A DNA stretch of 64,000 bases from Heterobilharzia americana. Its lineage: Eukaryota; Platyhelminthes; Trematoda; Strigeidida; Schistosomatidae. Made by a program: the position numbers and the translations under genes. Below the pieces are notes generated by a model. The model was not told where the DNA came from. It searched no databases and worked only from the letters and a program-made list of their open reading frames with translations. Below are positions 30,191-61,715 of the stretch, piece by piece (the stretch's first letter is position 1; each line of letters opens with the position of its first letter). Location of the stretch: assembly GCA_944470555.2 (NCBI GenBank), contig OX104127.1, positions 131,007,113 through 131,071,112 of the forward strand. Reading direction: 5' to 3'.

Positions 30191-30386
30191 TGATATAACT
30201 ATGAACAATAAGTAGTGTCCGAAACCTTATCCAGTAAAGAACAATACTAGTGTTATTGCTTGTATTGAACTGTCGTTGATTGGACCGAATTGATCAGTCT
30301 CTGTTGGCACATGGGCTCCTATGCGGATGTCTCGATATTGTCTATGTTTCAATTATGTATAGTAATCGTAGGTAGTGACTAGCAAT

Positions 30387-30439
30387 GGAATCCAGGATGC
30401 GCATTTCGTCCTAATTGGGACCCGTCAGCTGGATGTACC
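30387..30439 (-). ncRNA. Hammerhead ribozyme motif, family A
   Basis: Minus strand: stem I atccag/ctggat, CTGACG then G in place of A9, stem II gtccc/aggac closing an AATT loop, GAAA, stem III palindrome atgcgcat and a GUC-type site (CAUC). A single core substitution (A9 to G) probably impairs it. Confidence 0.65.
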
Positions 30440-30501
30440 TGACATTGGGATTGCTCCCGAGTCCGAATCCCGGTGGGAACAACGTCACTCACAGGGATGC
30501 A

Positions 30502-30553
30502 GGTACGTCCAGCTGACGATTCCCAAATAGGACGAAATGCGCATCCTGGATTC
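30502..30553 (+). ncRNA. Hammerhead ribozyme motif, family A
   Basis: Plus strand: stem I tccag/ctgga, complete CTGACGA, stem II tccc/agga with loop AAAT, GAAA, stem III atgcgcat, cleavage site AUC. Only the first stem II pair is a mismatch (U opposite C). One of the two best-preserved copies in the window. Confidence 0.7.
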
Positions 30554-30589
30554 CACTGCTAGCCACCACCCATCATTACTATAAAGAAC

Positions 30590-31715
30590 AGTGCTGTTTC
30601 GTGTCGAAGTACGCCTTAACAAGAAAGAAAAGAAAACTATAATCTACCACAGTGTTGAGGTTCTACACTTATGTTGACTTCATGAGTAGATGTCTAAGAC
30701 TCTGAACTAATATTTTTATGTTTATTTTATAACAATTAATATAGTTACATGTGAACCAGAAGTATTCTTTTAACAAGGGTTTTCAAGCGAAGAAAAGATA
30801 TTGTAGACATTATAATACCTTCAGAAATAATGCTGATTATTGGATCGACTGATAAAAAAATTGGTCATTTCTGATCACTTTTACTAGTAACCTGTAAAGA
30901 AATGGAATCATAAGATGAACCAATAATGTCTCGGTGTAATTCAGAACTTTAACAAACGATATTCCTAAAGTGAACACAAATTTTGTTAGAATTTTGTGTC
31001 CACTAAAAATTTAGTTTGAATAGTGATGGTATCAGGAGTCCGACTGGTGATAGTTATACAAAATACTTTCAAAATGAGATTGTGAAATAAGAGTGTTGCC
31101 TGTCAACTAAAAACAGTTCATAGACCTATGTATAGCGTTTCTAAATTACCCATCAGCAATCGAAGTAATATAATATTACAAAAACAACTCATTATTAGAG
31201 AATTATTCTTCAGATACCTAGGAATACCTTAAGTTGTACATGTGAGATTATTTCCTCCGTTTTCGTTGTTGTTACTTCAATAATTCTTTAAACAAAGTCT
31301 AACAGGAAAAAATTTTTCCCCTGAGAACAAACACTTCTAAACAGGATTTTAAGAAACTACCTTTTTTCAATTTAGAAGTTTGTGGGGATTCATTCATTGA
31401 GGAATACCAACCTAAGGTACCTTCGTGTCAAAACTGTACTCCGATTGAACTGAGTCCTGTCCTCGTTGTTCATCCAAGAGGAAATAATGAAACGTACAAT
31501 TTTGGCAGTATATATGGAATGACAATATGGCTACAATAAGCGAAACGGTGTTGGCATCAAAAAACATATATGATAATAAGTTGCAGGAGCATATAAGCAA
31601 CGATCTGGGATCATTATTCTCTCTGATCGGCCACTAAACAGTAATCAGTTTCATATTCTCTACTCCAATGGGGTGATAGAATTCTACCTATCATTTTGTG
31701 GCATTGTAACCAAAC
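30590..31715. other. No recognisable gene
   Basis: AT-rich; no supportable frame or repeat. Confidence 0.35.
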
Positions 31716-31719
31716 TAGG

Positions 31720-31960
31720 TAACTCACCATCTCGATGTACTTGAAAGCAATCATCTAGATACTCTGGAGTTAGGTCCCAATTCTAACTGGGCTCCGTCAG
31801 CAAGGCGTATTTATTACTCAGAAGGGAACTGACTGTCACATCACAGATTCGAACCACAGTCACTCATTGCTGCAGTCTAAATCGCTACTGCTGACCATTT
31901 TGATCCGTCACTGACCTCCTGCAAGATTGGATGAGATACACTGATTAATCAGTAAACAGC
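31720..31960 (-). repeat. Hammerhead repeat, family C (degenerate)
   Basis: Minus strand: tRNA-like head with the B-box complement gattcgaacc near 31848, then cgccttgCTGACGGAG, a strong hairpin cccagttagaattggg, and a mutated GAAA position (ctaa) followed by ctccag. Stem I ccttg/c-agg is partly kept. Extends into tail-like sequence near 31725. Confidence 0.5.
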
Positions 31961-31969
31961 AACCAATTT

Positions 31970-33750: not shown

Positions 33751-33754
33751 GTGA

Positions 33755-34010
33755 ACCTGTGAGGGCTGGACAACTGTTTCGTGGTAATATACAGCCTGTC
33801 AGCAGTTAGCACACTCAACCCACCAGGGATCAAACTCAGGATCTTTGGGTCAAGCGGTCAGCTCTTTAGCGTTGAGTCACTAGGTTGAGATTCAGTGATC
33901 TATATTGCCTACTTCTGTTAGTTCATATTATGATACGACCTCCATCACAGGTTTCCAATGGTCTCTCACCTGATTTCAGTTCGTAATGAATACCAACCTA
34001 AAATCTCAAC
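33755..34010 (-). repeat. Degenerate hammerhead repeat, family B
   Basis: Antisense ribozyme remnant (gagggctggacaactgtttcg, 33761-33781, keeps the GAAA complement; the other strand reads gtcagcagttagc), then the antisense tRNA-like head (gggatcaaactcagg near 33825). A sense-orientation tail follows (ccaatggtctctcacc to aataccaacctaaaatc, about 33955-34004). The inverted tail arrangement matches 47278-47570. Confidence 0.5.
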
Positions 34011-34019
34011 ATAAATTCC

Positions 34020-35220
34020 TATAAATTTTCAAACTGAATTGATTACGTTGTTCAGAATTTTCAATAACCAAATAAGAAAGTAACACGTACTATATAGGAA
34101 TGCATACTACAATAAGAAATGGACAAATCAGCGTCAATTAAATTAAATACATAGCAATTATTATTACTGACTTAGCGAATACCTACATGAAGAAACAATA
34201 AAATATTACTATTGATTAGTGAAATTACGTGAAAATATTTACAATCTACCAAAAATCAATAGGCAAAAAAAATATTTTTAAACATTAGTCTTCATCTAAA
34301 TTAGTTAAATAGCTAAGCACATCTGTCGTAATAAAGAACCACATAATGTATACATCCAAAGCAGTCAGTTGTCATTAAAATCAAACTCTATAGAAGAACT
34401 GTACAACAATGAAGATACCAAGCATGGAAATGAAATTGTACGTTCACTTTAGACAGTCATTAAGTAGAAAGATGTGTCAAGCTTAGAACGTTCAACGTTT
34501 CAATCACGTTGTCATTTGATAAAAAGGTCAGAATTGAGTGGTTCATTTATTCCAAGCATTTTAAACTCTTCGTGCAGCTTGACCATCATAAATGTCAGTG
34601 GTGAGCGTGCAGTCTCATCGTCAAAATATCAGACAACACAGGCTATGGTCACCTTTTTGAAGCGAATAAAAATACATCTCATAGTTTATCAGTAATGAGT
34701 AGTAAATTTCCTTTTGACTCATCGAGCTTCAAGCAAACTGAATACATTGTAAATAGTTATCCTCACAAAATACGGTTAACCATTTCCTACCAGACTCTCC
34801 AGTTATCTAGTTACCTACCTGAAAGTGACCAGATGTAGTGGGTGTATTACAGATTTGGACAACAGATAAAGTCTGTGGTAAACCTATTGTGGGGTAATAC
34901 AGGCTAAAACGTTTATTACCAATACCAAGTTGTAATATTTGTTTGTCATATCCTGTTTTCAGACGAGTTCTCCTAGTTTCGTGGTTTTATTTATTACCAC
35001 TACGACAAATGATTTTTGATACGTAGATAATAATAAAAATATGAAAATATTTCTTTCGTGATACAAATTTTAAAAAAAGCAACGAATGTGAAAAAAGGAG
35101 AATACACTGAAATCATGAATTTAAGTGGTAACCATCAGCTGGATACTTTATACACTTGATTATACATACTGTTAAAAGACGGAAAAGTATATACATACAT
35201 ATATAATTGTAGACTGAGAC
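34020..35220. other. No recognisable gene
   Basis: AT-rich with nothing assignable. Confidence 0.35.
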
Positions 35221-35416
35221 AGATTTAGGTGTAACAACATAGAGACCGATCAATTCAGTTCAGTCAACGACGAGATAATACAAGTAACAACACTATACCC
35301 GTTGCACAAGAAATGAGTATAACGACTCGGTGGTCTAGTGGATAAAGACCTGGTGTTTGAAGAAACTGGGTCGGAGTTAGAGTCCCGGTGGGAACAACAT
35401 CACTCACTGAGATGCA

Positions 35417-35469
35417 GGTACGTCCAGCTGACGACTCCCAAATAGGACGAAATGCGCATCTTGGATTCC
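35417..35469 (+). ncRNA. Hammerhead ribozyme motif, family A
   Basis: Stem I tccag/ttgga (one G-U), complete CTGACGA, stem II tccc/agga with AAAT loop (closing pair C opposite C), GAAA, stem III palindrome atgcgcat, cleavage site AUC. Type I topology. Confidence 0.7.
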
Positions 35470-35487
35470 ACTGCTAGCTACTATCCA

Positions 35488-35493
<6 letters not shown>

Positions 35494-35542
<49 letters not shown>
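35494..35542. repeat. AT dinucleotide microsatellite
   Basis: About 49 nt of alternating AT lying between the ribozyme flank and the second tail copy of the family A dimer. Confidence 0.95.
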
Positions 35543-35546
<4 letters not shown>

Positions 35547-35840
35547 CGGGCAATATCGGGACATCCGCTCAGGAGTCTGTGTCCCAATAGAGACTGATCA
35601 ATTCGGTCCAATCAGCGACGGGATAATGCAAGCAATAAGACTAATCTACAGGAAATGTCTTTATAGTTCAAGTGGTAATGCAAAGGGTAGGAATGGATGT
35701 TGAAAATTCAATTGGTTTGGGGATAGGTTGCATGGTTAACTGAGTTTGGATGATAGGGGATTTCAGGTAGGAAAATAATGATGCCAATAATAATTATCAT
35801 TTGACTATCTGAGATAGCCGTATTTCGGCAGACTAGTATT

Positions 35841-36003
35841 TAAACTGGGTTATGATTGACGGTGAAATGAAAATTTGAATTCAAACCAGCGACCACCGAG
35901 GTTTGTAACTCAGTTGGTAGAGCATCGGTTCGAAAACCCGGGGGTCGCTGGTTTGAATCCAAATTTTTATTTCAGTTTCAGTCATTACCCAGTATAGATA
36001 ATA
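35841..36003. repeat. Inverted repeat with a tRNA-like core
   Basis: Arms of about 60 bp (about 35841-35900 and 35941-36003) are inverted copies. The inner 35 bp of each are nearly identical: tcaaaccagcgacc on the left, ggtcgctggtttga on the right. The loop contains the A-box-like taactcagttggtagagca (35907-35925), and the right arm supplies a B-box-like ggtttgaatcc (35950-35960). A cloverleaf can be drawn for 35900-35967 with a 7-bp acceptor stem (aggtttg/caaattt, two G-U) but with a mismatched D stem and a short anticodon loop. I read it as a tRNA-derived pseudogene or SINE and not a working tRNA. Confidence 0.6.
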
Positions 36004-36244
36004 AGAATGTTGACACAGAGGGTAAGAACTGAATCGGTTGAGTGTAGATCACAACATTCAAAAGATGATACATAATAGCACTTGTGCAGACATAATAAGA
36101 AAATCAGATGCATATTTAGATGATCAATAATAATAATAATAATAGGGATAAAGTCAGTTCGGTGAAAAAAATCAAGCAAGGAAAACGAAGTATAGGATGC
36201 CAGATAATTAAGAGAGAAGAGCAAGTTAGAAAGATTAAATGTGA

Positions 36245-36565
36245 TCAGATGATGTTGTAATTCCTTATAAATGTAGAGGTTTGGCTTAACAACTGGAAAC
36301 GCGCAGGCTTCTACATATCGAAGTAACTTCTTATTTTGATATCTGCTGATAACTGTAAAAGACTTACAGGTGTTAATATCATACCCAAAATTCACTAGGT
36401 GTTTCTTTATTGAGCTTCTCGTGGTCTTCTTCTGGACATGCTTCAACCATTTGGGTGAGCAAACGCCTCTCCGTACAACCAATGTACTTGCTTCCGTAGG
36501 TACAATCGAATTGATATGTGCATCTATTACTATTATTTTCTTGCCTTAAATCCACTAACATCTAA
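36245..36565 (-). pseudogene. Penelope-like GIY-YIG C-terminal remnant
   Basis: Minus strand: CTYQFDCTYGSKYIGCTERRLLTQM (GIY-YIG with YIG intact, about 36520-36446), then after a frameshift SIKKHLVNFGYDINTCKSFTVISRYQNKKLLRYVEACAF and VKPNLYIYKE (about 36415-36255), equivalent to the family's terminal EA.AI..L.P.LC..K. One frameshift separates the parts. No RT blocks found upstream. The tRNA-like inverted repeat lies about 240 bp downstream. Confidence 0.75.
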
Positions 36566-36569
36566 ACTC

Positions 36570-39500
36570 AGTGAACCATGTTACCTATCCATAACCAACT
36601 GAATTTTCAACATCTATTTCCACCCTTTGTATTACCACTTGACCTGTAAAAACTCTTCCCTTCTATGTTTTTACACCGAAATCTGTCTCAGCCTACATTT
36701 TATATGTATGTTCTTTTCTATCGTTTAATGGCATATATGATCAAGTATATTGAGTATCTAGCTGATGAGTACTACTCAAATTTATGTATCCATTAAATCA
36801 TGCTTTTTTTCACATTCTCTGCTTGTTTTAAAAGTAAAAATTTATTATTGACACTTCCATTATGTTCTATCATATTGTTGTTTTTGTAGCATAGAATTGT
36901 GAAAACACTAAGTAAACTAAATTGCATGTTACACGTTTCTAATATGCTTTAATGTTTTCCTTTCCAGCAATCATTTGATGGAACAGCTTGAACGTATACG
37001 CTCATATGTGCTATGATGTTGATTGATTATTGTCTAAAAATTCATCACTTGTCACTTCTTCATATGTCTATTTATCTATTTGTTGTTTTGTGTTGCGTTT
37101 GGTTTACGCTGATCCAGTCTACAGTTGAATGAGCTTAGCTTTACTTCTTCAATAATCGAGGTTTTCGTAGTGTATTCTCACAGAAAAAAGTATTCATGAC
37201 TCGGATGAACTGTATAGATAATCTGTCGTAATCAAAGAAAACTGTGTTCCTTTAATGTTCCCTGATGTTGAAGGCTGGTAAACCTTTGTTTGAAATGAAA
37301 TTTGCAATTTGAGTCATCGTCGTCATGATACTTATACTTCTATGCAGAGTACGTGGGATTACGATGAGTTGTCCATTCTGAATCTGCCTGAAACTGAGAT
37401 GAGATATTCATTAATCAACAGAGATATGCCTAGACACTCACAAAATGTGACTTACTTGGGATGAGAGGATTCGCACATCGTAAAATCTGAAATCGACGAT
37501 TCAAACGAGTACTGGGCCTAGTTGACAAGGAAGAAACACAAAACTTCACTGTAACGAGCTTCGTTTCCCAGTGTCACCCAATGAGATCGAAGGTGAGGTA
37601 TGTGACAGTGTGTATATCATCAGTTGTCTCGTGAGCATATAATATGCATGGGTCAGGAAACGCAGTATGCTGGCGTTGAAGTTACTTTTAAGGTACCTCC
37701 AAGTTGATGAGTTTTACTGCGGATAGTGTGACCAAACTTGGTAATGAAACGTCCACAGCGGAATATCAAATTTCGGGGAGATCCCAGAAGACTCATTTTC
37801 TCACTTTGACCTACGAATCTTCATTGTTATAACTGTTTAATAAATACACGCAACTCGAAAACAAGCATTACATATTCAGCAATATATGGTTTTTCGCTGT
37901 ATGTGAAATGTTTGCCTGCATTATTTTTGAGCGTAACGGAAGATAACGCATCATATATTTTTTTCATCCAGTGAGCTGTTTGTTTTATTCAATTGTATAA
38001 ATTGATGATCTCAACAGGGTGATTAGTGAAATTCATTACAGTCAAGTGGATACTTATTTCTCACCCATAATCTCATGACTGTTATTTTCTATCGATTTTT
38101 TTTTCTCTATACCCACCATGGTTTTCGATGAATCATGAAAGGCCTGGATACTGAATTTGCTGATCATTAAAGTCAACGTTAGTGACTCAGAGTCAGTGTT
38201 ATTGAATAGTGGTTCTACCACATTTGGTTCAATCATCAAATGGCAATACTGAATTCTTAATAATATATGCAATGTAACTTAAATATTTCATGAAGCAGTC
38301 TACTTTCATGACTGTTCAAGGCTTAGAGATAAGATGTCACGTATCTGAAACCGATCTGCATATTTCATTGAGGATAGAGAACTTCTGCTTGTAGAATATT
38401 TACAATAATTCTGAGACTCTTATACCGCTGACCGTAGAATCTAACATTGTATATTCAGTCGTCAAACCCGTGCTAGTTGCTTTAGTGTGGAGTGAAGGCT
38501 GTTTTGGAACACATGCCATTAAGTAATTGTATCATAGAAATAGGAATTGCACTTGTGTATTCGATGGAAATATAGTTTTGTAATCTCATATCGTTTTATA
38601 ACTGAATGTTTCTGACAGCGAATTATTTTATTACACACAACACTTTGAAAATATGTTGACGTATTCTGACGTTCTATAGCAGATCGATCATAATCTATTT
38701 GAAGGTATTTTTCAGTATGCTGCAAGGTGTTGAAGAATATTTCATTCAAATTATTCAGGTTTACTACCATGCTATTTCACTTAAGTATCATCATGTACTT
38801 GTAAAGTGAGTGATAAGGCGACTTATTGTCACAGCTGTTAGACATAATCTGGCTGCTCTGCGCGAATAAAGAATCAGAAAAAGATTCTTGAATATTAATA
38901 ATGATATATCAAGCTTAACTTTTTGGTAATGACAAAAATAGGAAGTTACTGTGAATACACAAAAAATAACAGTTGTTCAATGTAATCTCGTGAGAATTTT
39001 CACGAAGGAGAACGGTGAACATATGGCAAGCACATTCTATCGTTTATACTTTACTTTCAAAGTTTCATAATCGGCAGTGGTTAATCAAATCAAGGTGAAA
39101 AATTGAAGTCAAACCTTGGACTAACTAACCATTTGACTACGCAATGAAAGTTCTTACTTATTCCTTTTGAATTTTAGTTGTTCAATTTCGAATATGTTCC
39201 AGTTGATTGTTGATCAAACTGCTTTTTTTGTTACATCGTTAAACTTACTGGATCTACTGTATTTAACAAAACTTTACGTGGTTTAATCATAGCCTTAGAT
39301 TCGGTTGGAAAATTTAATTAAAATCTCCCAAGACATAGATTTCTAAACCTCCATTTTCATTTATTTTAAGAGAACTGAAATTTGAGACCAAATCAACCTG
39401 AGCACCATTTATTTACTTTGATTGCACAAGAAGAATACTCTGTTGTATAAGCTGTATCTCATCAAAGACATTCGACTACACATACCCCTAATATGCATGA

Positions 39501-39935
39501 ATGAAAACTCGTAGGATATCTGATTTCGCATTAGTTTATAACTGCTTTTTAACTGATGACAGGGATCATCAAAACGATAAGCTTAGTCTTTAAGAAGCAA
39601 CATGCAAGACATGAGTTCAACTGAAGTGAACTAATTGCATCAAAACTCGTCTGCAAATGAAGAACGTTAAAGTTTCAAGATAACTTACGGTTAGTAACTA
39701 AGTAATTAAGTACATCACACTATTATGAAATGTTTCATACCACTTTTGTGAAACTTATTATCTTAATTGTTGAATCAATAAAGAATACACAGATGCTTAA
39801 CCTCACCACTCTTTATGAATGTGGTTATCCTGAGTATTGGCTGTGGTCATAATGCAAAATGATCGATAGAATTTGATCAATGCAGAGAACTAGAAAATAT
39901 GAAATTAGTTGAGCTTCAATGATCAGTCATTGTGT
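36570..39935. other. No recognisable gene
   Basis: About 3.4 kb. Frames at 38054-38272 and 38519-38770 lack motifs. ctgatgag at 36770 is isolated, with no GAAA strand in register. Confidence 0.35.
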
Positions 39936-39944
39936 ATAATCCAT

Positions 39945-40110
39945 TCCAATAAGGAATCAGCTGTGGTTCGAATTACTCGGTCGTAACGTCGTTGAACATA
40001 ACACTGGGTGAAACGGGTTCGAACCTTAGGCAGGACATCAATTCCGTTGAGGCTTCAGATACGCCTTGCTGACGAGTACCAACAACTGCATACATTTTCT
40101 TCATAACCAT
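39945..40110 (+). repeat. Hammerhead repeat, family C, 3'-truncated
   Basis: tRNA-like head with a good B-box, acgggttcgaacc (40015), then the family text aggacatcaattccgttgagg and cgccttgCTGACGAG (40060-40076). The GAAA half and stem III are missing; the sequence diverges after taccaacaactgc. Confidence 0.6.
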
Positions 40111-40149
40111 TTAATTATTCTCACGATTAAAACATTGAGTTTGTTCTTC

Positions 40150-42810: not shown

Positions 42811-42814
42811 CACC

Positions 42815-43245
42815 AAATACTGGCCAGCTATTTCGACCTAAACGGGACTCCTCGGTGGGTGCACCCATGACCCTACTCCACCAGGTATAGAACGTGAGAA
42901 AACGAATGTCGCAGTCAGAACTTTGCCACTAGGCCACTGGGTTAGAATCCGATGATTCATATTTCCTTTTTCTGTCAATACACAACATAGAGCGACCTCC
43001 ATCCCATTCCATCAATGAGTAACAATTCTCACGCATTATATCATAAGGTAACAGTAGTAGGTAATACGGACCACTGGATTTTAACATACTGACTATTAAA
43101 CAATAACGTCCTGGTTTCGACTACTGACAGTGGAGGTCATAGGTACACACCGCTGAGGATTCCGATTCTTCTTCAAGTGATGTCGGTCCATGATGAACAC
43201 CAACCTTAAATCGCTAAATAAATCCACATAACCCTCCAAATGGAA
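42815..43245. repeat. Head-to-head pair of hammerhead repeats, family B
   Basis: Antisense copy at about 42815-42960: ribozyme 42819-42863 with core cCGAGGAG and GAAA intact, then a head whose A-box complement is gccactaggccactggg. A sense remnant at about 43040-43245 keeps a degenerate head, cacaccgctgagga and the tail aacaccaaccttaaatc, with an internal deletion that removes the GAAA half. Confidence 0.6.
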
Positions 43246-45459: not shown

Positions 45460-46315
45460 TCACCTTTACCAATGCAAGATTTATGGTTTATCTCTGCTTC
45501 TGAGAAGTTTGACATACTTTAATGTCCATTGCGTTAGATAGTTTTGAAATCACAGCTCTCTATCTGTCCTCCACTCTGTTGTTCTCCTTGCCCAGAGTTG
45601 TTGATCACTCTAGAATCAATTTCAGACATTCGAAAAGTTCTATTGGTCACCTTATACAAGTATTTTTCCAAAATCACAAGCTGTTTTGGCTTTCAAAGTA
45701 AAGATAATGATAACGGTTTATAAAACTGTCCTTGACATTGTCCTTATAAGAAAAGATTATTCTTGATCTGATAAAAATGAAGGGATTTTTGGAAGGTAAA
45801 ACAGCTTATTCAAATTTATGAGGTGATTTTCGATCGTACTACTGAGAAAAAATCCTCAAGTTCACTATTCTTGGGAAAGGCGATTACAATAAGGATACCT
45901 GGTCTTTGTTCTACTCTAAATTCATTCAGTATTGACTCGATTTCGTCCACATACCATGGTTTTCACTACCAACATTTACTATTCAATAAGTATTACTGAA
46001 GAACAGTAACTGATTCTTTATTTAGCGCTTTTACTGTATTAGTATTTATGATTGTAGTCACTCGAAAAAAAACGGTCCTGTTGTCGAGAAAATGGTTTAA
46101 ATACAAAACTATTTTTCGTTTGTAAACCGTCTACCAAGTGCTTACTTTTTATCAAATCAAGTATGTTTCTTTCGTTTGTGTATACTTCAAAATATACATC
46201 ATTTTGTTTACTGTTACTAAGACCAATGATATTCTGAACAAGAAGAAAATCTATCAGTTCGTCCTTTCTTGGCACTTTTTAAAGCATTTTGTGTTGTTGC
46301 TTTTAGTATCCCATC
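45460..46315. other. No recognisable gene
   Basis: A 78-codon minus-strand frame at 46039-46275 (IKSKHLVDGLQTKNSFVFKPFSRQQDRF) looks slightly protein-like but is unassigned. Confidence 0.3.
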
Positions 46316-46319
46316 ATCA

Positions 46320-46670
46320 ACTGGACCAAATTTATCGGTCTCTGTTGGCATAAGGGATCCTACTCGGATGCCTTAATATCGCCTAGTGTTTCATTTTTTC
46401 GTAGTGATGGACAGTGAATAGCATCGGAATCCAGGATGGGCGTTTCGTCCTATATGGGATTCGTCAGCTGGGTACACCTGCTTCCCAGTCAGTGATGTTG
46501 CTCCTATTGAGACTTGAACTTAGGACCCATTAGGCTAGCAAACCATAATAGCCACTTTTTGTGTGATATGTGTAGTTTTTATGTTGTTGTCTGTACTATC
46601 GAAGCATCTTCACAGGAGCCTATATACCAGAAGAGACCGATCAGTTTAATCCAATCAAGGATACGATAAT
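46320..46670 (-). repeat. Hammerhead repeat, family A, with inverted tails
   Basis: Left end: antisense tail (tcggtctctgttggc to actcggatgcc, about 46338-46370). Then an antisense ribozyme (46426-46478), the spacer tcagtgatgttgctcc and an antisense head remnant (about 46510-46545). At the right end, about 46612-46665, the tail recurs in sense orientation (ggagcctatataccag, then gagaccgatcag). The unit is thus bounded by inverted copies of its tail. Confidence 0.7.
46426..46478 (-). ncRNA. Hammerhead ribozyme motif, family A
   Basis: Minus strand: stem I ccag/ctgg, CTGACGA complete, stem II tccc/agga with ATAT loop, GAAA, an imperfect stem III (cgcccat), cleavage site AUC. Confidence 0.6.
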
Positions 46671-46679
46671 ACCAGCAAC

Positions 46680-47265
46680 AACATAAAAACACTATTCAAT
46701 CGAGTCTTCGTAAAGCACTGGAACTGACACTAGGAAATATTTTGTCTGCTTCTATGTTGTGTTACTTTGTTAGTTGCTTAGACAACCCGCATAAATAATA
46801 GTGGCGATGATAATGGAATCAAGGTGGATGTGTTTGTTCAACTATTTCTGTCTGTGGTAAAGGATTAAAACCTGTCCCAAGAGTAAATGTAGGCATCATC
46901 GTATGAATTGAAAACTATACTGATTAAATACTATAGTTGTATACGCCAACTAGTTTCACTTTTCCAGAGATATACATGAATGAACACTAAGCAAATTTAT
47001 TTGCCACTAAGGTAATTGACCATAGAAATGTCATGTTATTTAGAACATTTACTAAAACACAAGTAAATTAATCAATAAGATGATGTGAAGTAATCTGATA
47101 CTTATATGAATATTATGATGAAGCTGACTGACCAGACTTAACAAGATGTAAAACTAGTAGGTGATTATTATATTGATTATAAATATATATGTATTGAATA
47201 TTTACACACAATTTACAATTAATTGATACGCTTTACAATGCACACATTTTTGATGAATATGACTG
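46680..47265. other. No recognisable gene
   Basis: AT-rich; nothing assignable. Confidence 0.35.
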
Positions 47266-47329
47266 ATTATTATATCAGGTTGGTATTCATCATGGATTGA
47301 CACTAGTTGGAGGAATATTAGAAACTTGA

Positions 47330-47378
47330 GAGCACTGGACAGCTGTTTTGTCCAAGCATACGACTCTTCAGCAGTGTG
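47330..47378 (-). ncRNA. Hammerhead motif, family B (GAAA mutated)
   Basis: Minus strand: CTGAAGA complete, stem III acagctgt and stem I cactg/cagtg intact, GUC site present; the GAAA strand reads caaaa (G12 lost) and stem II is weak. Confidence 0.5.
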
Positions 47379-47867
47379 TATCCATATCCCTGCCCTGTCC
47401 CGGATCGAACCCAGGACTTTCAGGTTACGTGCCCAGCACGTTACCATTGAGCCTTTGGGTTGGAATCCAATTGTCTATATTTCCTACTTCCGTCAGTTCA
47501 CGATATAGTGCTCCCAGGTTTCCAATGTTCATCCAACTGATGTCAGTCCAGTACGCATTCCAACCTGAAACCAACTGATAAACCTCCACACACTTCCGGA
47601 TAGAATTAATCTAGCGCTCATTGGTAACTAGCTTCGAGAGGTGATTCTCGAAGTTTCAATGTAAGGTCGTGAGCATCGGTGCCAACCATGAAGAACATGA
47701 GGACAGTTACTCAGCGATGACACTGGATGGTGGTCACGCTACATAGTGAAGTGACAGAAGTAGGAAATATGAACTGCTGGATTCTGACCCAGTGACCCAA
47801 TGGCAACGTACTGACCACGAAACCTGAAAGTCTTGGGTTCCATCCCTGGTGGGGTGGGGTCATGGGT

Positions 47868-47917
47868 GAGCATTGCTGAAGAGTCCTATACCTGGACGAA
47901 ACAGCTGACCAGTGCTT
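47868..47917 (+). ncRNA. Hammerhead motif, family B (cleavage site mutated)
   Basis: Plus strand: CTGAAGA and GAAA are both intact, stem II tcc/gga, but the expected GUC at the cleavage site reads GAC, breaking the A-U pair at the base of stem III. This copy keeps both catalytic strands. Confidence 0.55.
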
Positions 47918-48184
47918 ACAGCTTTCCACCGTTACTCCATTTAATACCAATCGATGACGAGTTCGAACCTAAAATCAGCTATTAAGTTCTCTCAAACCCT
48001 CAGATAAAATACATAGTTAAGAAAAAACCCTTTAGCCATTCTCGAACATCTGATTAACTATAATCACTGCTTCACTGGAATCTTTATTCATGGTCATTTA
48101 TAAAACGCATTCAGGCATTTCGAAGGGAATGCAGAGTTGCCAAATGAATGGGGCAGAAAACTAGGCAATCAATCTTTTCATGTT

Positions 48185-48360
48185 AGTTAGGTGCTGGGAG
48201 CCGGCAGGAAGCTCTTCACCTAGGCTTCATGCTTTTTAGCACTCCTCAGCAAGGTGTATTTGAAACCTTGACGAAAATGAGGACCCCCTTAGAATCAAGC
48301 CCGTAAAGCCCAGTGTTGCAGTTGGAGGTGTTATCACTAAGCCACTCGCTTACTCACCAA
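48185..48360 (-). repeat. Hammerhead repeat, family C
   Basis: Minus strand: a head remnant near 48300-48350 (aagccactcgctta on the plus strand is the A-box side), then ccttgCTGAGGAG, a 4-bp stem II gtgc/gcat around TAAAAA, GAAG in place of GAAA, and the CCTAGG palindrome (48211-48255). The tail reads ttcctgccggctcccagc. Confidence 0.6.
48211..48255 (-). ncRNA. Hammerhead motif, family C (GAAA to GAAG)
   Basis: CTGAGGA fits CUGANGA; stem II has 4 bp with one wobble; stem III is CCTAGG-based; the last A of GAAA is G. Stem I ccttg has no good partner (gaagag). Probably inactive. Confidence 0.45.
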
Positions 48361-48424
48361 TGATCAATCAAAGTACTTAATCCAGTTTAACAAGAAGTCA
48401 GTTACCGCCTAAACAATTCAGTCT

Positions 48425-48600
48425 CAGAGTCTCTGACTCCAGAAATGGGAGACGTGGGTTTAAATCCCAATCGGGACATCTACTGCGTAGAGGTTGCAGA
48501 TACACCTTGCTAACGAGTGCAAAACCCAGAAAGTTAATTCTATGGTTTCCTGCTGACTGCCTCCATTCAAATAATATCTATCTCAGTGCATCGCGACGAT
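48425..48600 (+). repeat. Degenerate hammerhead repeat, family C
   Basis: Sense copy with B-box-like gggtttaaatcccaatcgggac (48453-48474), ggttgcagatacaccttgc and a mutated core (ctaacgag at 48511). GAAA-like cagaaag follows but stem III is lost. Tail: ttcctgctgactgcctcc. It lies 65 bp from the antisense copy at 48185-48360, head to head. Confidence 0.55.
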
Positions 48601-50110: not shown

Positions 50111-50117
50111 GTATTTA

Positions 50118-50270
50118 TCGTGATGACTAGCAGTGAATTCCAGGACACGCGTTTCGTCCTATTTGGGGCTCGTCGGCCGAATGAAACTTCATCCTACACC
50201 AGTCACTGGTGTTGTTCTCACTGCTACTCCAACCCAGTTACTATCACTTCAAACATCAAAGTGTTATTCA
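50118..50270 (-). repeat. Hammerhead repeat, family A
   Basis: Antisense copy: flank gatgactagcagtgaattcc, ribozyme (50135-50182), spacer cagtcactggtgttgttctc, and a head remnant near 50220-50250 (actccaacccagttac). Tail-like antisense fragments (gcctatgtggaggcc) continue near 50392-50410. Confidence 0.65.
50135..50182 (-). ncRNA. Hammerhead motif, family A (core U4 mutated)
   Basis: Minus strand: CCGACGAG in place of CTGACGAG, GAAA intact, stem III acgcgtgt, cleavage site GUC, loop AAAT in stem II. Confidence 0.5.
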
Positions 50271-50429
50271 CCAGGCATCCACTGAGGCATAAAAACCGCC
50301 TCTTGCACAATGAGTATCAGTTGTTGTTTGAGACTTGTAATTTCCTATTGCTATGAAGGGTCGAGTTGCTTGACCTCTATTGGGAGATTGGCGCCTATGT
50401 GGAGGCCTTGATACCTGGATTCTGCTGCT

Positions 50430-52230: not shown

Positions 52231-52247
52231 GTTGCATAAACAGTATC

Positions 52248-52395
52248 TCTCATGACTCAGTAGTGGATAAAGCTCTGACATGTGAAGTGATGTATTCTGA
52301 GTTCCCGTCTCAGTAAAGGTACATCTAGGTAATCGGTGGTTTCAAGAAATCACAGAAAGTGTAACTCGGATCCTACTGCTAGCCAATATCCCCAA
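52248..52395 (+). repeat. Degenerate hammerhead repeat, family A
   Basis: Sense head remnant (gactcagtagtggataaagctctg, 52255-52278; B-box-like gagttcccgtctcag at 52299), the text ggtacatct at the start of stem I, and the flank ctactgctagccaatatcc at the end. The hammerhead core itself has been lost (ggtggtttcaagaaatcac lies in its place). Confidence 0.45.
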
Positions 52396-52399
52396 TTGA

Positions 52400-53130
52400 A
52401 ATCTTATGGAAACCAAAAGAGTAAAGATTATGTTACCATCTGTTCCGAGGTCAAAGCACAATCATCAAACAAAGTTCAGCGTATTCATAAAATCTTTTGA
52501 TATACGTAAAAGGTTACGAAAATACCTTTCGCACTGAACAATTGAAAAAAATGTATTCATAACAGATCTGTTGACGGTTACAATGACATATTTTGGCATA
52601 TATGTCACGATAACTTAACCTGATGTGATATATTCCTTTGTACTATACGGTTCTAGTTGACGCACACTGATGATTCTTTTATGCATGCGTGTCAATAATT
52701 AGATATCAGTTGATAAAGATAAATATGAAATCGTTATTCATAGGCTGTAACAAATAATGATGGTAAATATGCTCACGAAGTCTTCTGGACAATAATATCA
52801 CAATCAAGACGTCACTTTTGCAAATTCAGAGGATTTAAATTTGTTTTTTGCACTCGAACTAGCTGAATTCCCATACAGAAGTCAACTACGAAGTCTTTTT
52901 CAAATTGTAATGACCAGCGATCAGTTTGAAAATGAGTCTGAAAAAGAGCAAAGTCAAGGAATACAAATTTGACTTAACTGCTGTACTAAGTAACGGCAGA
53001 TAGTTTACGTGCACACAGATATTAATGATTTACACATGTTCCTTAAATTTTGTTAATTGGTGCAGAAATGATTCCAATTTAGGATCTTTTAATATTCCTT
53101 ACCGAAAAAGGCGTGCACATCATTCGTCAA
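52400..53130. other. No recognisable gene
   Basis: AT-rich, nothing assigned. Confidence 0.35.
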
Positions 53131-53132
53131 TA

Positions 53133-53147
53133 TATGCGAACCAAATA
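53133..53147 (+). repeat. Diverged target-site duplication of the old RTE copy (3' side)
   Basis: tatgcgaaccaaata matches tatgggaaccgaata at 56469-56483 in 13 of 15 positions and sits directly outside the 3' tail remnant. Confidence 0.65.
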
Positions 53148-53906: not shown

Positions 53907-54173
53907 TCATCTGAAGTCCCGTATTCGCTGTTTCGCCTCTTCTGCCAACTTGTTAGTTTTCGACTCTAGATCTTCAAATTTGTTCGACATTGGACATAAA
54001 TCATCGCCGGTGAAATACAAATCTTCTACGACCTTTTCATCAGTCAAACTGCATCCACCCATTTTCTCGCTCTTTACAGTTTGCTGCATGATCCAGTCCA
54101 GTCCAGTCCAGTCGACAACAATTGAGAAGATCATTAGTGATAGCAGGCAGCCTTGTCTTACTTCTGTCTTCAC
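53907..54173 (-). pseudogene. RT fragment of the old RTE copy
   Basis: The longest recognisable RT piece: KTEVRQGCLLSLMIFSIVVDW (motif around GVKQGCLLSP), then a short insertion from tandem ccagt repeats, IMQQTVKSEK, VVEDLYFTGDDLCPM in place of LEDLDFADDLCLM, and NKLAEEAKQRIRDFR before a stop. The C-terminal half is almost identical to the frame at 43289-43489. Confidence 0.85.
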
Positions 54174-56123: not shown

Positions 56124-56468
56124 ACTTCTCTGCTATACCTTCTCATCTCTTTTGAAATCTGAACAGCCTTGCCATCCAGCTTCAAACATTGTGCGGACAA
56201 TCCATGTCTGCATTCTTACTTTCGCTGTCATTGAGAGAGAGAGAAGACGCATCGACCAACTGGTTTCTGGAAGGTTTTCACCAAACGGCGTCATTTCGCC
56301 TCTCCGATTCCAGTGAGGAATAAGTTTAATTTTATGCTTTATATTTTCTTTGTGCTTTGAGGTTTCTTCAGGGATTGGATTGGGGTTGCTAACCCTATGC
56401 CCAAGCTTCCCTCTCTATGCGGGCTTAGGACGGTCTAGTACCTAGTGGACTAGTTAACTAGGCGAGGT

Positions 56469-56483
56469 TATGGGAACCGAATA
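56469..56483 (+). repeat. Diverged target-site duplication of the old RTE copy (5' side)
   Basis: Partner of 53133-53147; two mismatches in 15. Confidence 0.65.
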
Positions 56484-56533
56484 AGTGACTGCTAATATCG
56501 CGTTGTTTATGTCAATTTTCATTTGATTCTAGG

Positions 56534-56656
56534 GACACATAACAAAGAAGCGGTTGAACTTTGAGGTTCAGAAAGGTGGAAAATATCCTCAAATGGTAGG
56601 GAAAACCGCAGCAATCAAACGGTTCGATCAACACAGTGGGCGGATAGACGTAGGTT
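56534..56656 (+). CDS. Putative internal host exon (unassigned)
   Basis: A pyrimidine-rich stretch and AG acceptor (tttgattctag, ending about 56533) precede an open frame without ATG that reads GHITKKRLNFEVQKGGKYPQ and then MVGKTAAIKRFDQHSGRIDV. A possible donor GTAG|GTTATA lies near 56656-56662. The composition (Lys, Gly, Arg, Gln mix, with little of the Asn/Ile/Phe/Tyr bias of chance frames here) and the raised GC content stand out from the surroundings. It sits 50 bp beyond the old RTE copy. I recognise no domain. Without neighbouring exons this remains a candidate; the frame stays open to 56757, so the 3' limit is uncertain. Confidence 0.4.
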
Positions 56657-56759
56657 ATATTATTGGTTCAGAAGGAACCTTTAGACCATTGTATGTTATA
56701 CAACTTGTTTCGCTTGTCATTTGTATCAAAGCAAAAATAATCAGACCAGAAGAATAACT

Positions 56760-57025
56760 TGCTATCTTGTCCATTTCTTGGCTCCTCCTCAGCTGAAAAC
56801 TACCTGGAATAAATACAAAATTAGTTGTCAGTACGGTATGCTTTAGTTTATTAAAGGCTACACCCTAAAAAATTTTGAAAAGCTTTTTGTGCATATAAAA
56901 ACAATTTATCTTTGCTTGAAACCTTCTCCATCAACCTTTATCCCATTTAAATATCATGGTTATTGTGGAAATATATCATTCCTCCTCCATCTTCGTTTTG
57001 TTTTCAACTCTTCTATTATCTTTAG
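56760..57025. other. No recognisable gene
   Basis: AT-rich intronic or intergenic DNA. Confidence 0.35.
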
Positions 57026-57029
57026 GTCT

Positions 57030-57485
57030 TATTCCTCTCGGACTGACATCAGATGAAGAACTACTGAAAACCTAGGAGTAGTGAACTACTGATTCTTCCC
57101 ATTATGGGATTCACAAGCAGTACCACCTACCACCCAGCCAAGTATCGAACTCAGGACCTTCAGGTTTCATGGTGAGCATATTAACCATTCAGCCACTAGG
57201 TTGTAGTTCAACGGTCCACAGTTTCCTAATTCTAGAAACCTTGGATAATAGCCGTGCAGTGTCGCGAATTGTTAGAAGCATGGAAATGTGAGCTAATGAT
57301 CTCCAACCCGGTGGTTGAATAGGTAACGCGTTCACCTTGAGTAAGTTCACTGGTAGGGTTGTGAGCGCACGCTGCCTAGGAGTCCTGTGCTAGGACAAAA
57401 CTACTCTCCAGGGCTCCCATATTTTCAATGGTTATACTAGTTATGTTAGTCAGTGATGAATATTACCAAATAAATTTCACTATCC
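57030..57485. repeat. Head-to-head pair of degenerate hammerhead repeats, family B
   Basis: Antisense copy at about 57030-57240: tail text ggactgacatcagatg, antisense head with aagtatcgaactcagg at 57151, A-box complement cattcagccactagg. Sense copy at about 57300-57485: head ccggtggttgaataggtaacgcg, ribozyme remnant 57366-57412 (ctaggagtcctgtgctaggacaaaac) and tail. Both ribozyme cores are lost; stem II of the sense copy (tcct/agga) remains. Confidence 0.55.
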
Positions 57486-57489
57486 TTAT

Positions 57490-60400
57490 TTGTTTATCTT
57501 ACTCTACTCTTTTTTCACCCTTTATTTTAAATGTCCTCACAAGTAAGTGAGTGATTGCAAGCATTCTGTAAATGAAGTATTTTTAACCTATGAATACCTT
57601 TTGACTACTGTATGAAAAAAGTCGAAGATAGTGGAAGTTTATTTGAACGAACCTTATTTTAAAGTCAAACTATTCACTGTGGGACTGAAATAACTCATTT
57701 TTATTCTCTTTGACACATCTGATAATAATAGTTGTTAATTGGATTGACTAATTCATAATAAACATAATGATGGAAACATTCAAGGCGCCAACATAGTGAA
57801 TTTTCATTATTTTTTAAACTGAGCTTACTTCCGTTTAAAAAAAGGTTGAATATGCGTTTCAAAAGTTTCAATGTCTTCAACTGATCAGACCGCGTGATTT
57901 GAATCTTTATCAAAATAACCTGAAGACCTACAAGCGTCAGAAGTGTTTTGTCCGTTAACATATATAATTTACCTCTAAATTTTCACAGAATGTCTTCCAT
58001 GATTAGTCTCTCATTCTCATACATCTAGTTGGCTATGTAGCCAAATTAATTAACGATTACATATCTAAGCAACTGTCTGTCAACTTTGACAAAAAGTGTT
58101 TTACCATACCCATGAAAATGGGTCATTCGAATTCTATGGACTTTTATAAGTCCCAACGGTATAAGTTATGCACTTGTGACACTTTGGTATTCTTTATTAA
58201 ACTCTTTCAAATTTGACGTCATAGTTTTTATCAAACCATGTCAGTTCCCTTCCGCCCTACTCAATGAACAAATTTTTATCCCTTTGAATATAGTTAAGTT
58301 AGACTTTAGTTATTTATTTTTCATAAACTGCTGACTATAAACAAATAAAATGACAAAAAGCGCCCTAGTTATTCAGCTGACATTGTTATCCTCATTGTCT
58401 TCAATCTACCACTTATTGTACTTACGATAAGAACCTCTTATCTCGTGATGTTGACTCTATGCTATCCTAATTAACGACTACCATTCTTACTTTAAATATC
58501 TAGGATACTCCGTATCTTCCGAAAACCTATCGACTTTGCTGTTTCACAAAGAATTTTGGTCTTTTTTAATTATCTCCTTCAGCTCTTCCCGGTTGACCTT
58601 TCGTGTATGATTGTGATCAGAAAACCCATGTCCGAAATTTTTAATAGTCTAGCATTTAATCTACCTGCTTTCTGAGTAAATATTATTGATTGATCTTCAG
58701 TTTTTAGAAGACATATCGGTTGTGACTGCCAACAGGCATTCAGTTACATTGCTAAACTAAGCGTTTGTTGTTCACCATTTTGGTGATGTCTATCCCAGTG
58801 CAGTGTAGTCAACACTGAAATCTACGCTATTATTTTGTTCCAATTGACTTAAAACCCTATTTTTCCTATGATCTTTAACACAATCCCATATTAACTACCA
58901 ATAATAAAAGTAACAAGTATTAGACTTGTACAAACCTCCACATATATTTATATCGACATATTTGCTATATAAAATGTCATATTACTGCTAACAACACTAT
59001 TATTCTGAATATAGTGTTCCATTATTTTACGAACACAATACTTGAGCGGTACCTTGACATTTTCTCCTCGCACATCTTGTGTTTTTGGTATTGTAGTCTG
59101 TGCTTTTATCCAATTTGTCCATTCCAATAAGTAAACCTGAAGTTCGATGTCCACTTCTAAATGTCGCTTCGAGTCACTTGTCCTCTCTCTCTTCTACTAT
59201 TTTCACAACCCATAAACTATCTGATTGCCCTGGTGATCAACGTTACATCGCTTGTGCATTGATACTCATTAGATCAATGATCAGGATTGTCTGTAGTTTT
59301 GGCTCAAAATGAGACGTTAAACACATTGCTATTTTCAACGAGAACTTCTTCGGCTACTTGCAGATTGAATGTGGTTCAAAAATTAGCAAACTTTATTTTC
59401 TCTGATGTATTATGGCAATGCATCATTTCCGATGATCAGTTTCAAAGGAGAAGGAGGGGGTATTTGAATCTTATGAATTTTTTTAGTCTTCTTTCCCACA
59501 TTTTTGATAAATATCAAATTGAATGCGTATCATATGTAGTCTTCACTTTAAAGTTTCTATTCACCTGCCTTTTATTTTCTATGTATACAAATATTTATAG
59601 GTTCCTAGAGTAGGCAATGTCACAATGTCTAGTTTCATAAGCTGAGTGCCTCTGATCAATAAAGTGTGCAATGTAACCACAAAAATAACCAGGCCGAAAT
59701 CATAATACAATTAATTCGAGTCATAGAGAAGTTATCTCGAGTGTAAGTAACTTTCATCTTGATTGTGTCGTATTCACTGAGCTGGATAGTTTAGTCGTGG
59801 AGCCTTCGTTATCATCTCAGACAACATTATCAGTATTAACTTTGATATGAAGTGTCAGTATCTTTCCGAGAGTTATTCCGTAGTCTCCAAATGAAGCAGA
59901 GTGTTACTGGTAATGTCGCTTGATTATTTTGCTGTTGATTTCATAGATTTCCCTGCTGATGGTTTCACCGCTTGACTTTTGACCCTATAGCTATTTGTTA
60001 TTTTTCTTGCTAACTGATAGACTAGGTCCACGTGTATACAGCTAGTGACTACTAGCTGGCCTGAATGTTAAGCTTCCAGGAATTATGTTTGTGTTGACAC
60101 TCATTAGTAAGATGTATAAGAAATGAATGAAAACTCTCACAAAAGCAATAGTTTACAAAAATATCACATATATGTGTCGGTAAAGTTCTCTAAGTAATTT
60201 ATCGTAACTGTTTTACCGTCATTTATTTAGGAAACTGTTATCATTATAGCCATTCATATTAATAGTTTGCTCAAAGAAAGTTTTTGTTCGATAATAATCA
60301 AGCATTTTCATCTTAAATAATTCATGTGAAGCTGTAGAATAATCCATGTTCCATCGAAAACAACATGCCGTGAACACTAGCTCTAGCTAAGGTACAACGG

Positions 60401-61365
60401 AAAGAGGAATTCTTTACCCTATTTTAAACTGGCAATAAGCAGGTTGAAATTGCTCTTCGAGGGATGGAAATTTAAAGTGTCAATCAAGATAACTTTTAAC
60501 CAAACTATTTAATAAAATACAACGTCGTTCATTCTTCAGAATAAAATATAGCTCATGTGGTCACTGATATTCAGCAGGTTATTTTGCTTTATTCTGATTA
60601 TTTGTGCATATAGATTCTTATACATAATAAGGTAGTAGTAATTGAAATGCCATTGCAATTATATGAACAATTCCATACGGTGTAAATAAATAGAAAATTT
60701 TAGAAAAACAGTCATGGGATCAATGCTTTTTTCTAACCTTTGAATTTACTTCTGGTAGTAAAAGTGCAACCATAAAAAAGTTATATAATATTCAAAGTTT
60801 TCTATGGTATATTCACTAGTAAAAATTTTGGGCAAATCTAGGTTAAACTCCTCTATTTTCATCTTATTTTTATCTGGTTATTTCAGCTTTTGGATGCTTA
60901 GCTATGTGGTTCGAACTTGCCTTGTTTAACACTGGTCACCACAAGTAGTGTTTGCTCCAGAGAAATCTCATCTCAGTCCAAAATATTCTTCTGCTTCCTA
61001 TAATCTCCCAACTGTTTTTTTTCAGCTGATTTTATTTAGCTTATAAAAGGTATTGTAATAGAGATTGTTATCAGTGAATAAAGTCTTACTACAGTGCATC
61101 CACCGAAAGATAGGCAACGCTGTAACTGATATTGTCGCACGAATTCAGTCACTTGTAAGTGATATCTTCGTAACAGAATGTTAGTGATTTCACTGTATCT
61201 TCTACTTTGAATAGGAAATGTAGATTACAACAATTAACAGTTTCTAGTATTTTCAGTAGAACAACATGAGACAGCGTTAGACTTATTGATTGGTTACTGG
61301 AGGGAAATCAACTTCATTCAGTATAGTCTTAAGCGCTGACTGAACTCTATTGATCATTCTGCAAT
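57490..61365. other. No recognisable gene
   Basis: About 3.9 kb, the longest unassigned stretch. Short frames (57701-57961, 58948-59154, 59287-59613) have no recognisable motif. Confidence 0.35.
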
Positions 61366-61374
61366 GTGGATAGG

Positions 61375-61715
61375 GGGCTCTTCGTCACGATGTACTGAGA
61401 CAGGTGTTAATTGGATGGAAACAATCGACAGAAAACCTTGAATCCAGGTTTTTGGCACTCATCATTAGCGCATGTCTGCAGGAAATCTTGACCCGAATAA
61501 GTTAGTGGTAACGTCTGTAACTGCAACACTGGGTTACACGGGTTGAAATTGCAGACGGGACATCAGTTCCGTTGAGGTTAGAGGTGCAGCCTGTTGACAA
61601 GTGCCATAAAAACGAAAACCTAGGTTCAGGGCTATTTACCGATTACCTACATCAAACTTAAATAGAGTTAGACAGCTGAGGTCACTGAAACGTGCACAGG
61701 AAACCAATTCTTCTG
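61375..61715 (+). repeat. Hammerhead repeat, family C, with inverted partial copy upstream
   Basis: Left part (about 61380-61470) is antisense: tail and a ribozyme remnant (ccttgaatccaggtttttggcactcatcat), lacking the GAAA complement. The right part is sense: head (tagtggtaacgtctg near 61500, B-box-like cgggttgaaattgcagac near 61540), the family text gacatcagttccgttgagg, ribozyme 61588-61631 and tail to about 61715. Confidence 0.65.
61588..61631 (+). ncRNA. Hammerhead motif, family C (core mutated)
   Basis: gcctgTTGACAAG in place of CTGACGAG; stem II gtgcc with a long A-rich loop; GAAA, CCTAGG stem III, a GUU site and caggg closing stem I with cctg. The first core strand carries two changes. 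Confidence 0.45.

Follow-up and report, generated by a model that had tools for sequence, protein, structure and literature searches.

The hammerhead-bearing Sm-alpha repeat of schistosomes is well described. Here we report on three families of repeats with tRNA-like heads and hammerhead motifs, named A, B and C, in a 64,000-nt window of the Heterobilharzia americana genome (assembly GCA_944470555.2, contig OX104127.1, positions 131,007,113 to 131,071,112 of the forward strand; coordinates below count from the first base of this window). These repeats belong to a known kind, and the architecture of their insertions is the informative addition.

The Schistosoma mansoni hammerhead repeats W25.2, W26.2 and W27.2 have been listed beside W36.2, itself equated with Sm-alpha; each of the three has a very short stem III, a length of 399-428 bp and copies on the autosomes that number tens of thousands, most of them partial (PMC8490949). 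In the same source, cleavage in vitro is recorded for three of five tested candidates, these being variants of W25.2 and W36.2, and the W-elements are credited with target-site duplications (TSDs) and intra-element inverted repeats, so that inverted repeats as such are already in print. The word "tRNA" does not occur in the main text of that source, whereas A, B and C have tRNA-like heads. Elsewhere, a short interspersed nuclear element (SINE) of the tRNA-Gln-TTG type was found similar to Sm-alpha (PMC2770079), and a 2016 paper noted a full tRNA-Gln in schistosome repeats (PMC4918200).

The metazoan retrozymes not derived from long terminal repeat (LTR) elements are, like A, B and C, short and equipped with a single type I hammerhead (PMC7229834; PMC4918200); partial tandems, as described for them, are seen most clearly here in family A. 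The B and C copies are mostly inverted or single, unlike these tandem elements, and the word "inverted" is absent from the text of PMC7229834. Penelope-like elements whose type I hammerheads are minimal resemble A, B and C in carrying a direct or inverted piece of their own tail, the pseudo-LTR (pLTR), at the 5' end; A, B and C differ from them in having tRNA-like heads, no open reading frame (ORF) and no tail in common with the window's Penelope. Direct plus inverted pLTRs are the typical Penelope structure, and copies in inverted arrangement most often lie head-to-head; TSDs measure 8-10 bp or are missing, and Penelope can move an unrelated foreign gene in trans (PMC3846280). Some Penelope loci that include a hammerhead have been described as tandem or partial-tandem (PMC11167929). 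From shared features and co-occurrence, Penelope elements have been considered strong candidate movers of metazoan retrozymes (PMC7229834), a proposal also made in PMC7761336. The own-tail signature at the 5' end gives a direct, genome-wide sequence test of what moves animal hammerhead repeats. The open-access literature searched yielded no account of tRNA-headed hammerhead repeats whose 5' ends carry their own tail in the Penelope manner. The data below lead us to regard A, B and C as tRNA-headed, retrozyme-like, non-coding SINE-like retroelements, each with a single type I hammerhead, for which a reverse transcriptase (RT) of the Penelope type probably does the copying in trans.

Census and layout of the three families

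Profile searches with nhmmer and alignment identified 25 repeat bodies (8 of A, 10 of B and 7 of C) between positions 18 and 61659 (Table 1). An initial annotation of this DNA had recognized three hammerhead families in many copies; these are borne out, except that the range it assigned to them, 30268-61715, was too narrow. It had also given the order of elements common to the three families, which the alignment confirms: a tRNA-like head is followed by stem I, CUGANGA, stem II, GAAA, a palindromic stem III, NUH and again stem I. The letters of stem III are ATGCGCAT for family A, ACAGCTGT for B and ACCTAGGT for C. Among aligned copies, the majority letters are GCACTG CUGANGA GUCC loop GGAC GAA ACAGCUGU C CAGUGC in family B and ACCUUG CUGACGA GUGC loop GCAU GAA ACCUAGGU U CAGGGU in family C. 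Upon iteration, the nhmmer family models absorbed members of the other families and are referred to as mixed in Table 1.

The window has 22 stop-to-stop ORFs of 110 aa or more, and they leave all 19 ribozyme positions of A, B and C that were compared with them free of overlap. Lacking sequences coding for RT and GIY-YIG, the three families would be non-autonomous at best. The window is AT-rich, with a GC content of 32-42% in 4-kb steps.

Family A looks like Sm-alpha (W36.2), as had been proposed, in its ribozyme, which comes near the Rfam type I consensus (57 bits), its tiny stem III and its tRNA-like head; the likeness is one of description. Family A has a period of 348 bp, an (AT)n run included, as compared to 333-335 bp for Sm-alpha (PMC8490949). 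The stems, heads and tails of B and C differ from those of family A. To judge from the published accounts of W25.2, W26.2 and W27.2, B and C have probably been described already as repeats. Family B, whose composites we estimate at about 368-380 bp against the 399-428 bp of these units, is plausibly one of them, the comparison being by description and length, not by sequence.

Own-tail pieces and inverted pairs at the 5' ends

Copies lie within 520 nt of one another in seven head-to-head pairs, with no tail-to-tail and no same-strand pairs. Random placement yields a mean of 0.38 pairs, and seven pairs were reached in none of 20000 runs. The upstream segment that starts 70 nt and ends 400 nt from the core was then scanned for pieces of the family's own tail, in direct or inverted orientation, in 22 copies (all but A76, B43165 and C61478). 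Such a piece beat all 200 shuffles in 18 copies (6/7 in A, 9/9 in B, 3/6 in C), the excess being modest for A50176 and A14660. Pairwise BLAST, which is free of any bias from the tail consensuses, detected own-tail repeats or inverted arms at six of 16 regions (A30, A35, A46, B18, B47 and C48). Thus, all three families carry the insertion signature of Penelope-like elements, a piece of the family's own 3' tail at the 5' end. This inverted and tandem architecture had no place in the initial annotation.

The pieces are of several types. The A unit at 35239-35643 is a partial tandem, and weaker tandem-type pieces are found at A50176 and A14660. In family B, direct tail pieces occur upstream of 18654 and of 47876, the latter being the partner's inverted tail. 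The inverted A pair at 30248-30585 is probably a single insertion: it is flanked by TAAAGAACA at 30235-30243 and 30582-30590, of which the right one touches or overlaps the end of the element. We regard these flanks as a probable 9-bp TSD; random 40-mers share a word of 9 or more with a probability of 0.006, and eight inserts were tried. In the B copies whose inverted arm consists of the tail only (47371, 33802 and 30107), the inner edge of the arm falls 2, 7 and 8 nt, respectively, from the predicted cleavage site. These arms look as if cDNA had been made from a self-cut 3' fragment; all three junctions could go back to a single source copy, in which case they would not be independent.

The own-tail signature of the three tRNA-headed families matches that of a Penelope copy found elsewhere in the window. 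This 5'-truncated Penelope-like element carries its 3' tail in inverted form at its own 5' end (4609-4851 versus 5873-6115, 99.2% identity over 243 bp). Among the best 120 of 785 matches of its ORF are Schistosoma proteins, the closest 71% identical, some of them named GIY-YIG endonuclease. The Penelope and RTE labels of the window's ORFs are ours, since Pfam assigns to them no names other than RVT_1, DUF6451 and those of the Exo_endo_phos families. A 3' end common to A, B, C and these Penelope or RTE copies was considered and rejected, as no tail sequence is shared.

A different mover would be a long interspersed nuclear element (LINE) of the RTE/SR2 type: A, B and C would then be ordinary tRNA-derived SINEs, the hammerhead a passenger, and the inverted neighbours the outcome of nested insertion or later rearrangement. 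The window does contain RTE-type ORFs in two similar copies, and Sm-alpha has been termed SINE-like (PMC8490949; PMC2770079). We nevertheless hold this explanation to be unlikely, as it has to contend with seven head-to-head pairs against none in other orientations, with partial own tails, both direct and inverted, at the 5' ends, and with the lack of a tail in common with the RTE 3' end. In a small control, the RTE tail itself was missing from both RTE-type 5' ends at which it was sought, namely the 5' flank of the copy that ends at 9680 and a second end, at 56474, inferred from a decayed twister motif only.

Hammerhead motifs of families A, B and C

A strict descriptor, demanding a perfect palindromic stem III and allowing at most one core mismatch, has four matches in the window (three in A, one in B, none in C) and none in 40 simulated first-order Markov sequences of 64 kb. 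With the Rfam model Hammerhead_1 (RF00163), five family A copies score above threshold as type I hammerheads (43.0-57.0 bits), and every match above threshold is an A copy. Single B and C copies remain under the gathering score of 34 bits, the best B copies reaching 29.6 bits (E 0.003) and 23.7 bits (E 0.27) and the best C copy 19.8 bits (E 0.05, when 601 bases were searched). A covariance model was therefore built from five of the eight A ribozymes and used in an unfiltered search, with E-values that are rough. Below the five training copies, the next ten entries of its list comprise eight A, B or C copies and two unrelated places, 41321(-) at E 0.89 and 24817(+) at E 1.2. The first non-A match is the C copy 48218-48255(-) at E 0.023; other family copies follow at E 0.044-1.6, with C 15592(+) and B 47870(+), 47332(-), 18368(-), 18648(+) and 42811(-) in the interval from 0.18 to 1.6. 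A second model, trained on five of the eight A and seven of the ten B ribozymes (its E-values again rough), retrieves four C copies at E 0.019-1.8, interspersed with 6247(-), 21600(+), 21161(-) and 29099(+). Hence the covariance search that the initial annotation had recommended for B and C, here run on single copies, fails at the Rfam threshold and succeeds in part with the A-only model, which lists their copies at E 0.023-1.6 along with two unrelated places. These leave-family-out models lend marginal further support to B and C as hammerheads. As predicted from the letters, the type I architecture, with core, three stems and entry through stem I, is present in A and in the majority letters of B and C. 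The common architecture of the families points to one mobile class, as the initial annotation had proposed.

Covariation was examined in an alignment of 18 of the 25 bodies (A14660, A52355, B57117, B43165, C31800, C40070 and C61478 were omitted). In these ribozymes, 79.0% of cells are paired versus 65.0 ± 2.0 in shuffled and at most 36.9 in slid alignments, and two-sided changes number 38 versus 16.5 ± 3.1 in shuffled ones. Covariation between families amounts to 0.460, where shuffled alignments give 0.224 ± 0.029 and slid ones no more than 0.114, consistent with the compensatory stem changes that the initial annotation had called for. Neither the pairs with two-sided change nor the further pair types exceed the shuffles in the same 18 ribozymes. 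Since the signal stems from differences between families, it represents in effect very few events. A, B and C show how ribozyme stems may be swapped under a fixed core.

The ribozymes are much decayed. A position-by-position check of 16 copies found an invariant position changed in 8/8 B and 1/2 C copies, and all such positions intact in 3/6 A copies. One of the remaining two B bodies has a changed U4 and the other has no core. Among the seven C bodies, a full set of invariant positions is left only in C 15595(+), whose stem I pairs at 3/6 positions. A core or stem defect is thus present in all ten B and all seven C bodies, and the ribozymes of the window are therefore mostly fossils, which corrects the impression left by the initial annotation. 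Two folded units exhibit strong self-pairing (z -5.0 and -5.5), a trivial result because of the inverted tails and the (AT)n run; neither lowest-energy fold, as we read the dot-brackets, shows the full hammerhead. Scans for exact patterns were empty for A and B in viral contigs and for C in genome contigs.

Given this decay, family C could be a tRNA-headed repeat in which CUGANGA...GAAA and a palindrome occur by chance. Besides the single C body with all invariant positions and the scores under the Rfam threshold, one may cite the within-C covariation, 0.231 versus 0.178 ± 0.070 with four of seven C copies, too few rows to be informative, and the fact that the A-only model takes the palindrome of the copy at 48218(-) for stem I instead of stem III. 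This explanation seems quite improbable when one considers that a C copy is the top non-A match of the A-only model, that four C copies are retrieved by the A+B model, together with a few non-family matches, and that stem III of family C pairs in 12/12 cells (4 rows).

tRNA-like heads and kinship between families

A B box with at least 7 of 8 positions was found within 120 nt upstream in 9 of 22 copies, as compared to 136 of 2000 random windows (6.8%); the scan took in all bodies except A52355, B43165 and C61478. Enrichment of an A box with at least 6 of 8 positions in the same 120 nt is weak (7/18 copies versus 131/923 random). No head reaches the Rfam tRNA threshold, and ARAGORN, run with the bacterial code, reports no tRNA gene. 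The enrichment of the boxes in heads that stay below these thresholds suggests that the heads are likely tRNA-derived and degenerate; the tRNA heads of the initial annotation survive in that qualified form.

The same annotation had called the families unrelated, which appears doubtful. Using family-clean consensuses (six A, eight B and six C copies), which were preferred to the biased mixed-model consensuses and gave weaker values, the heads of A and C resemble each other with z 5.0 (0/1000 shuffles), while A-B and B-C yield z 0.6 and 1.4. Corresponding values for A-C, B-C and A-B are 2.7, 3.1 and 0.4 in the spacer before stem I and 2.3, 3.2 and 1.3 in the stretch after the cut. The nominal cores of C48513, C40070, C61478, A14660, A52355 and B43165 are misplaced by between 1 and about 30 nt, which may blur these similarity values and was judged immaterial for the 330-nt flanks and the pair counts. 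Hidden Markov models of the heads gave no convincing detection across families (A head versus C, E 2.1; C head versus B, E 0.023). The A and C ribozymes probably share a common ancestor; that of B may derive from the same ancestor or have been acquired separately. Common descent of all three families is not proven by these comparisons. Three independent ribozyme captures are not favoured given the A-C and, in part, B-C similarity, weak as it is for B.

Mode of copying

Read directly, the families display a hammerhead architecture, a B-box-like head and, at the 5' end, an own-tail piece or a whole inverted copy. The odd, mirrored 5' ends point to one retrotransposon class, the Penelope type, as the copier. 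Transcription would be driven by the RNA polymerase III-type, tRNA-like head. The hammerhead would cut multimeric or read-through RNA into unit-length, possibly circular molecules, probably with the help of dimers because stem III is tiny. Unit-length RNA would be copied by a Penelope-type RT, whose template jumps or self-priming could account for the tail pieces, tandem or inverted, found where the 5' end joins the flank.

Several observations weigh against this explanation. The tails of A, B and C share no sequence with the 3' ends of the Penelope or RTE elements of the window. The tail consensuses were built partly from the pieces tested, which inflates some of the scores, and in paired copies the own-tail piece is the partner's tail; pairwise BLAST found no own-tail repeat at ten of the 16 regions. 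Other than the A pair with the probable TSD, the remaining seven inserts share end words of only 5-7 bases, within chance. Covariation within B is nil (0.107 versus 0.114 shuffled, 8 of 10 copies), no B copy has an intact ribozyme, and for C there are the uninformative covariation and the misplaced palindrome described above. In vitro, insertion by the PAc Penelope does not need hammerhead cleavage (PMC11167929). Finally, the evidence on the three families comes from one 64-kb window.

Palindromes formed at the DNA level without reverse transcription, as foldback or miniature inverted-repeat transposable element (MITE)-like elements or by hairpin repair, would account for inverted arms separated by short gaps and for a 172-nt palindrome with a tRNA-like centre at 35834-36003, and the TSDs and intra-element inverted repeats reported for W-elements were sought with a MITE program (PMC8490949), yet we consider this origin very improbable since direct own-tail pieces are also present (35239-35295, 50375-50413) and several inverted pieces are partial tails, not symmetrical ends. 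Returning to Penelope-type copying, one may go further and speculate that the tRNA-headed hammerhead SINEs of schistosomes are obligate Penelope passengers, with cleavage shaping their insertion. We entertain this extension, to which the arm edges near the predicted cleavage site in three B copies would fit, only tentatively; if true, it would unite polymerase III promoters, processing by the ribozyme and insertion by Penelope within a single life cycle.

Table 1. Positions of family A, B and C copies, own-tail pieces and reverse transcriptase-encoding elements in the 64,000-nt window
Feature	Position	Strand	Details
Family A hammerhead	30507..30551	+	Rfam RF00163 55.0 bits; invariant positions intact; stem II 3/4
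Family A hammerhead, inverted partner of 30507(+)	30390..30434	-	Rfam 57.0 bits; A9 changed
Family A hammerhead	35422..35466	+	Rfam 52.0 bits; invariant positions intact
Family A hammerhead	46429..46473	-	Rfam 44.7 bits
Family A hammerhead	50138..50182	-	Rfam 43.0 bits; U4 changed
Family A hammerhead, decayed, window edge	70..114	+	A+B covariance model 25.4 bits
Family A copy, deletion spans ribozyme	14596..14705	-	nhmmer E 9e-22 (mixed model)
Family A copy, degenerate	52314..52401	+	nhmmer E 1.5e-12 (mixed model)
Family A head-to-head inverted pair	30248..30585	.	30358-30583 self-inverted, 76% over 241 columns
Family A unit, partial head-to-tail repeat	35239..35643	+	35239-35295 repeats 35587-35643, 82%, 57 bp, E 9e-13, period 348
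Inverted piece of A tail, upstream of 46467(-)	46597..46688	+	46614-46688 vs 46287-46361, 73%; score 69 vs shuffle max 25
Direct own-tail piece upstream of A 50138..50182(-)	50375-50413		score 33 vs 25, modest
Family B hammerhead	47870..47915	+	Rfam 29.6 bits, E 0.003, sub-threshold; U16.1 changed; A-only model E 0.3
Family B hammerhead	47332..47377	-	A-only model E 0.34; G12 changed
Family B hammerhead, head-to-head with 18648(+)	18368..18413	-	Rfam 23.7 bits; arms 78.6%
Family B hammerhead	18648..18693	+	A-only model E 1.2
Family B hammerhead, decayed	33763..33808	-	in A+B model training set
Family B hammerhead, decayed	30101..30146	+	in A+B model training set
Family B copy, head-to-head with 43040-43208(+)	42816..42986	-	ribozyme core of 43040-43208(+) deleted
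Family B head-to-head pair	57023..57467		arms 57234-57023(-) and 57261-57467(+)
Inverted own tail of B copy 47275-47505(-)	47507..47610	+	79% over 62 bp; score 128 vs shuffle max 26
Inverted own tail of B 33802(-)	33945..34043	+	score 83 vs shuffle max 28; missed by pairwise BLAST
Inverted own tail of B 30107(+)	29879..29976	-	score 89 vs shuffle max 27; missed by pairwise BLAST
Family C copy	15496..15660	+	nhmmer E 9e-43; hammerhead 15592-15633 with no invariant position changed and stem I 3/6; A-only model E 0.18
Family C copy	48183..48347	-	hammerhead 48218-48255; A-only model 17.1 bits, E 0.023; Rfam 19.8 bits
Family C copy, head-to-head partner of 48347(-)	48412..48574	+	nhmmer E 1e-39
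Family C copy	61494..61659	+	hammerhead 61588-61632, A+B model E 0.62; inverted partner 61407-61498(-), score 127 vs shuffle max 27
Family C copy, decayed	31741..31901	-	nhmmer E 4e-33; A+B model E 1.8
Family C copy, head and 5' part of ribozyme only	39969..40086	+	direct own-tail piece 39844-39873
Penelope-like element, 5'-truncated (our reading)	4609..6115	+	RT ORF 4821-5981, RVT_1 E 3e-10
Second Penelope fragment (our reading of the ORF)	35985-36545	-	between inverted arms 35651-35779 and 36532-36659, 83% identical
RTE-type endonuclease and RT ORFs (our reading)	6475-9640	-	second similar copy 11545-12484

Further motifs in the window

Inverted arms at 21108-21268 and 21524-21697, 81.6% identical, each contain a hammerhead-like CUGAAGA...GAAA, with a 4-nt ACGT stem III in the right arm by our reading; they resemble a minimal Penelope-type hammerhead without a tRNA head. 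The A+B model has a hammerhead-like match at 6247-6291(-) (E 0.0021), in the interval that separates the ends of the Penelope and RTE elements, whose stem III is not palindromic as we read it. The 172-nt palindrome, with 75.6% identity, lies beside the Penelope-like fragment; its centre scores 23.4 bits with the tRNA model RF00005 (threshold 29), and no hammerhead was seen in it.

Twister-P1-like motifs, both under the Rfam threshold of 67.2 bits, occur at 9607-9680(-), at the 5' end of the RTE-type LINE (53.7 bits), and at 56401-56474(-) (33.9 bits). Truncated twisters at RTE 5' ends are mentioned as work in preparation in a 2020 review (PMC7761336). A SECIS_1-like match inside the RTE 5' ORF, at 9432-9497(-), scores 34.2 bits against a threshold of 35 and is probably due to chance.

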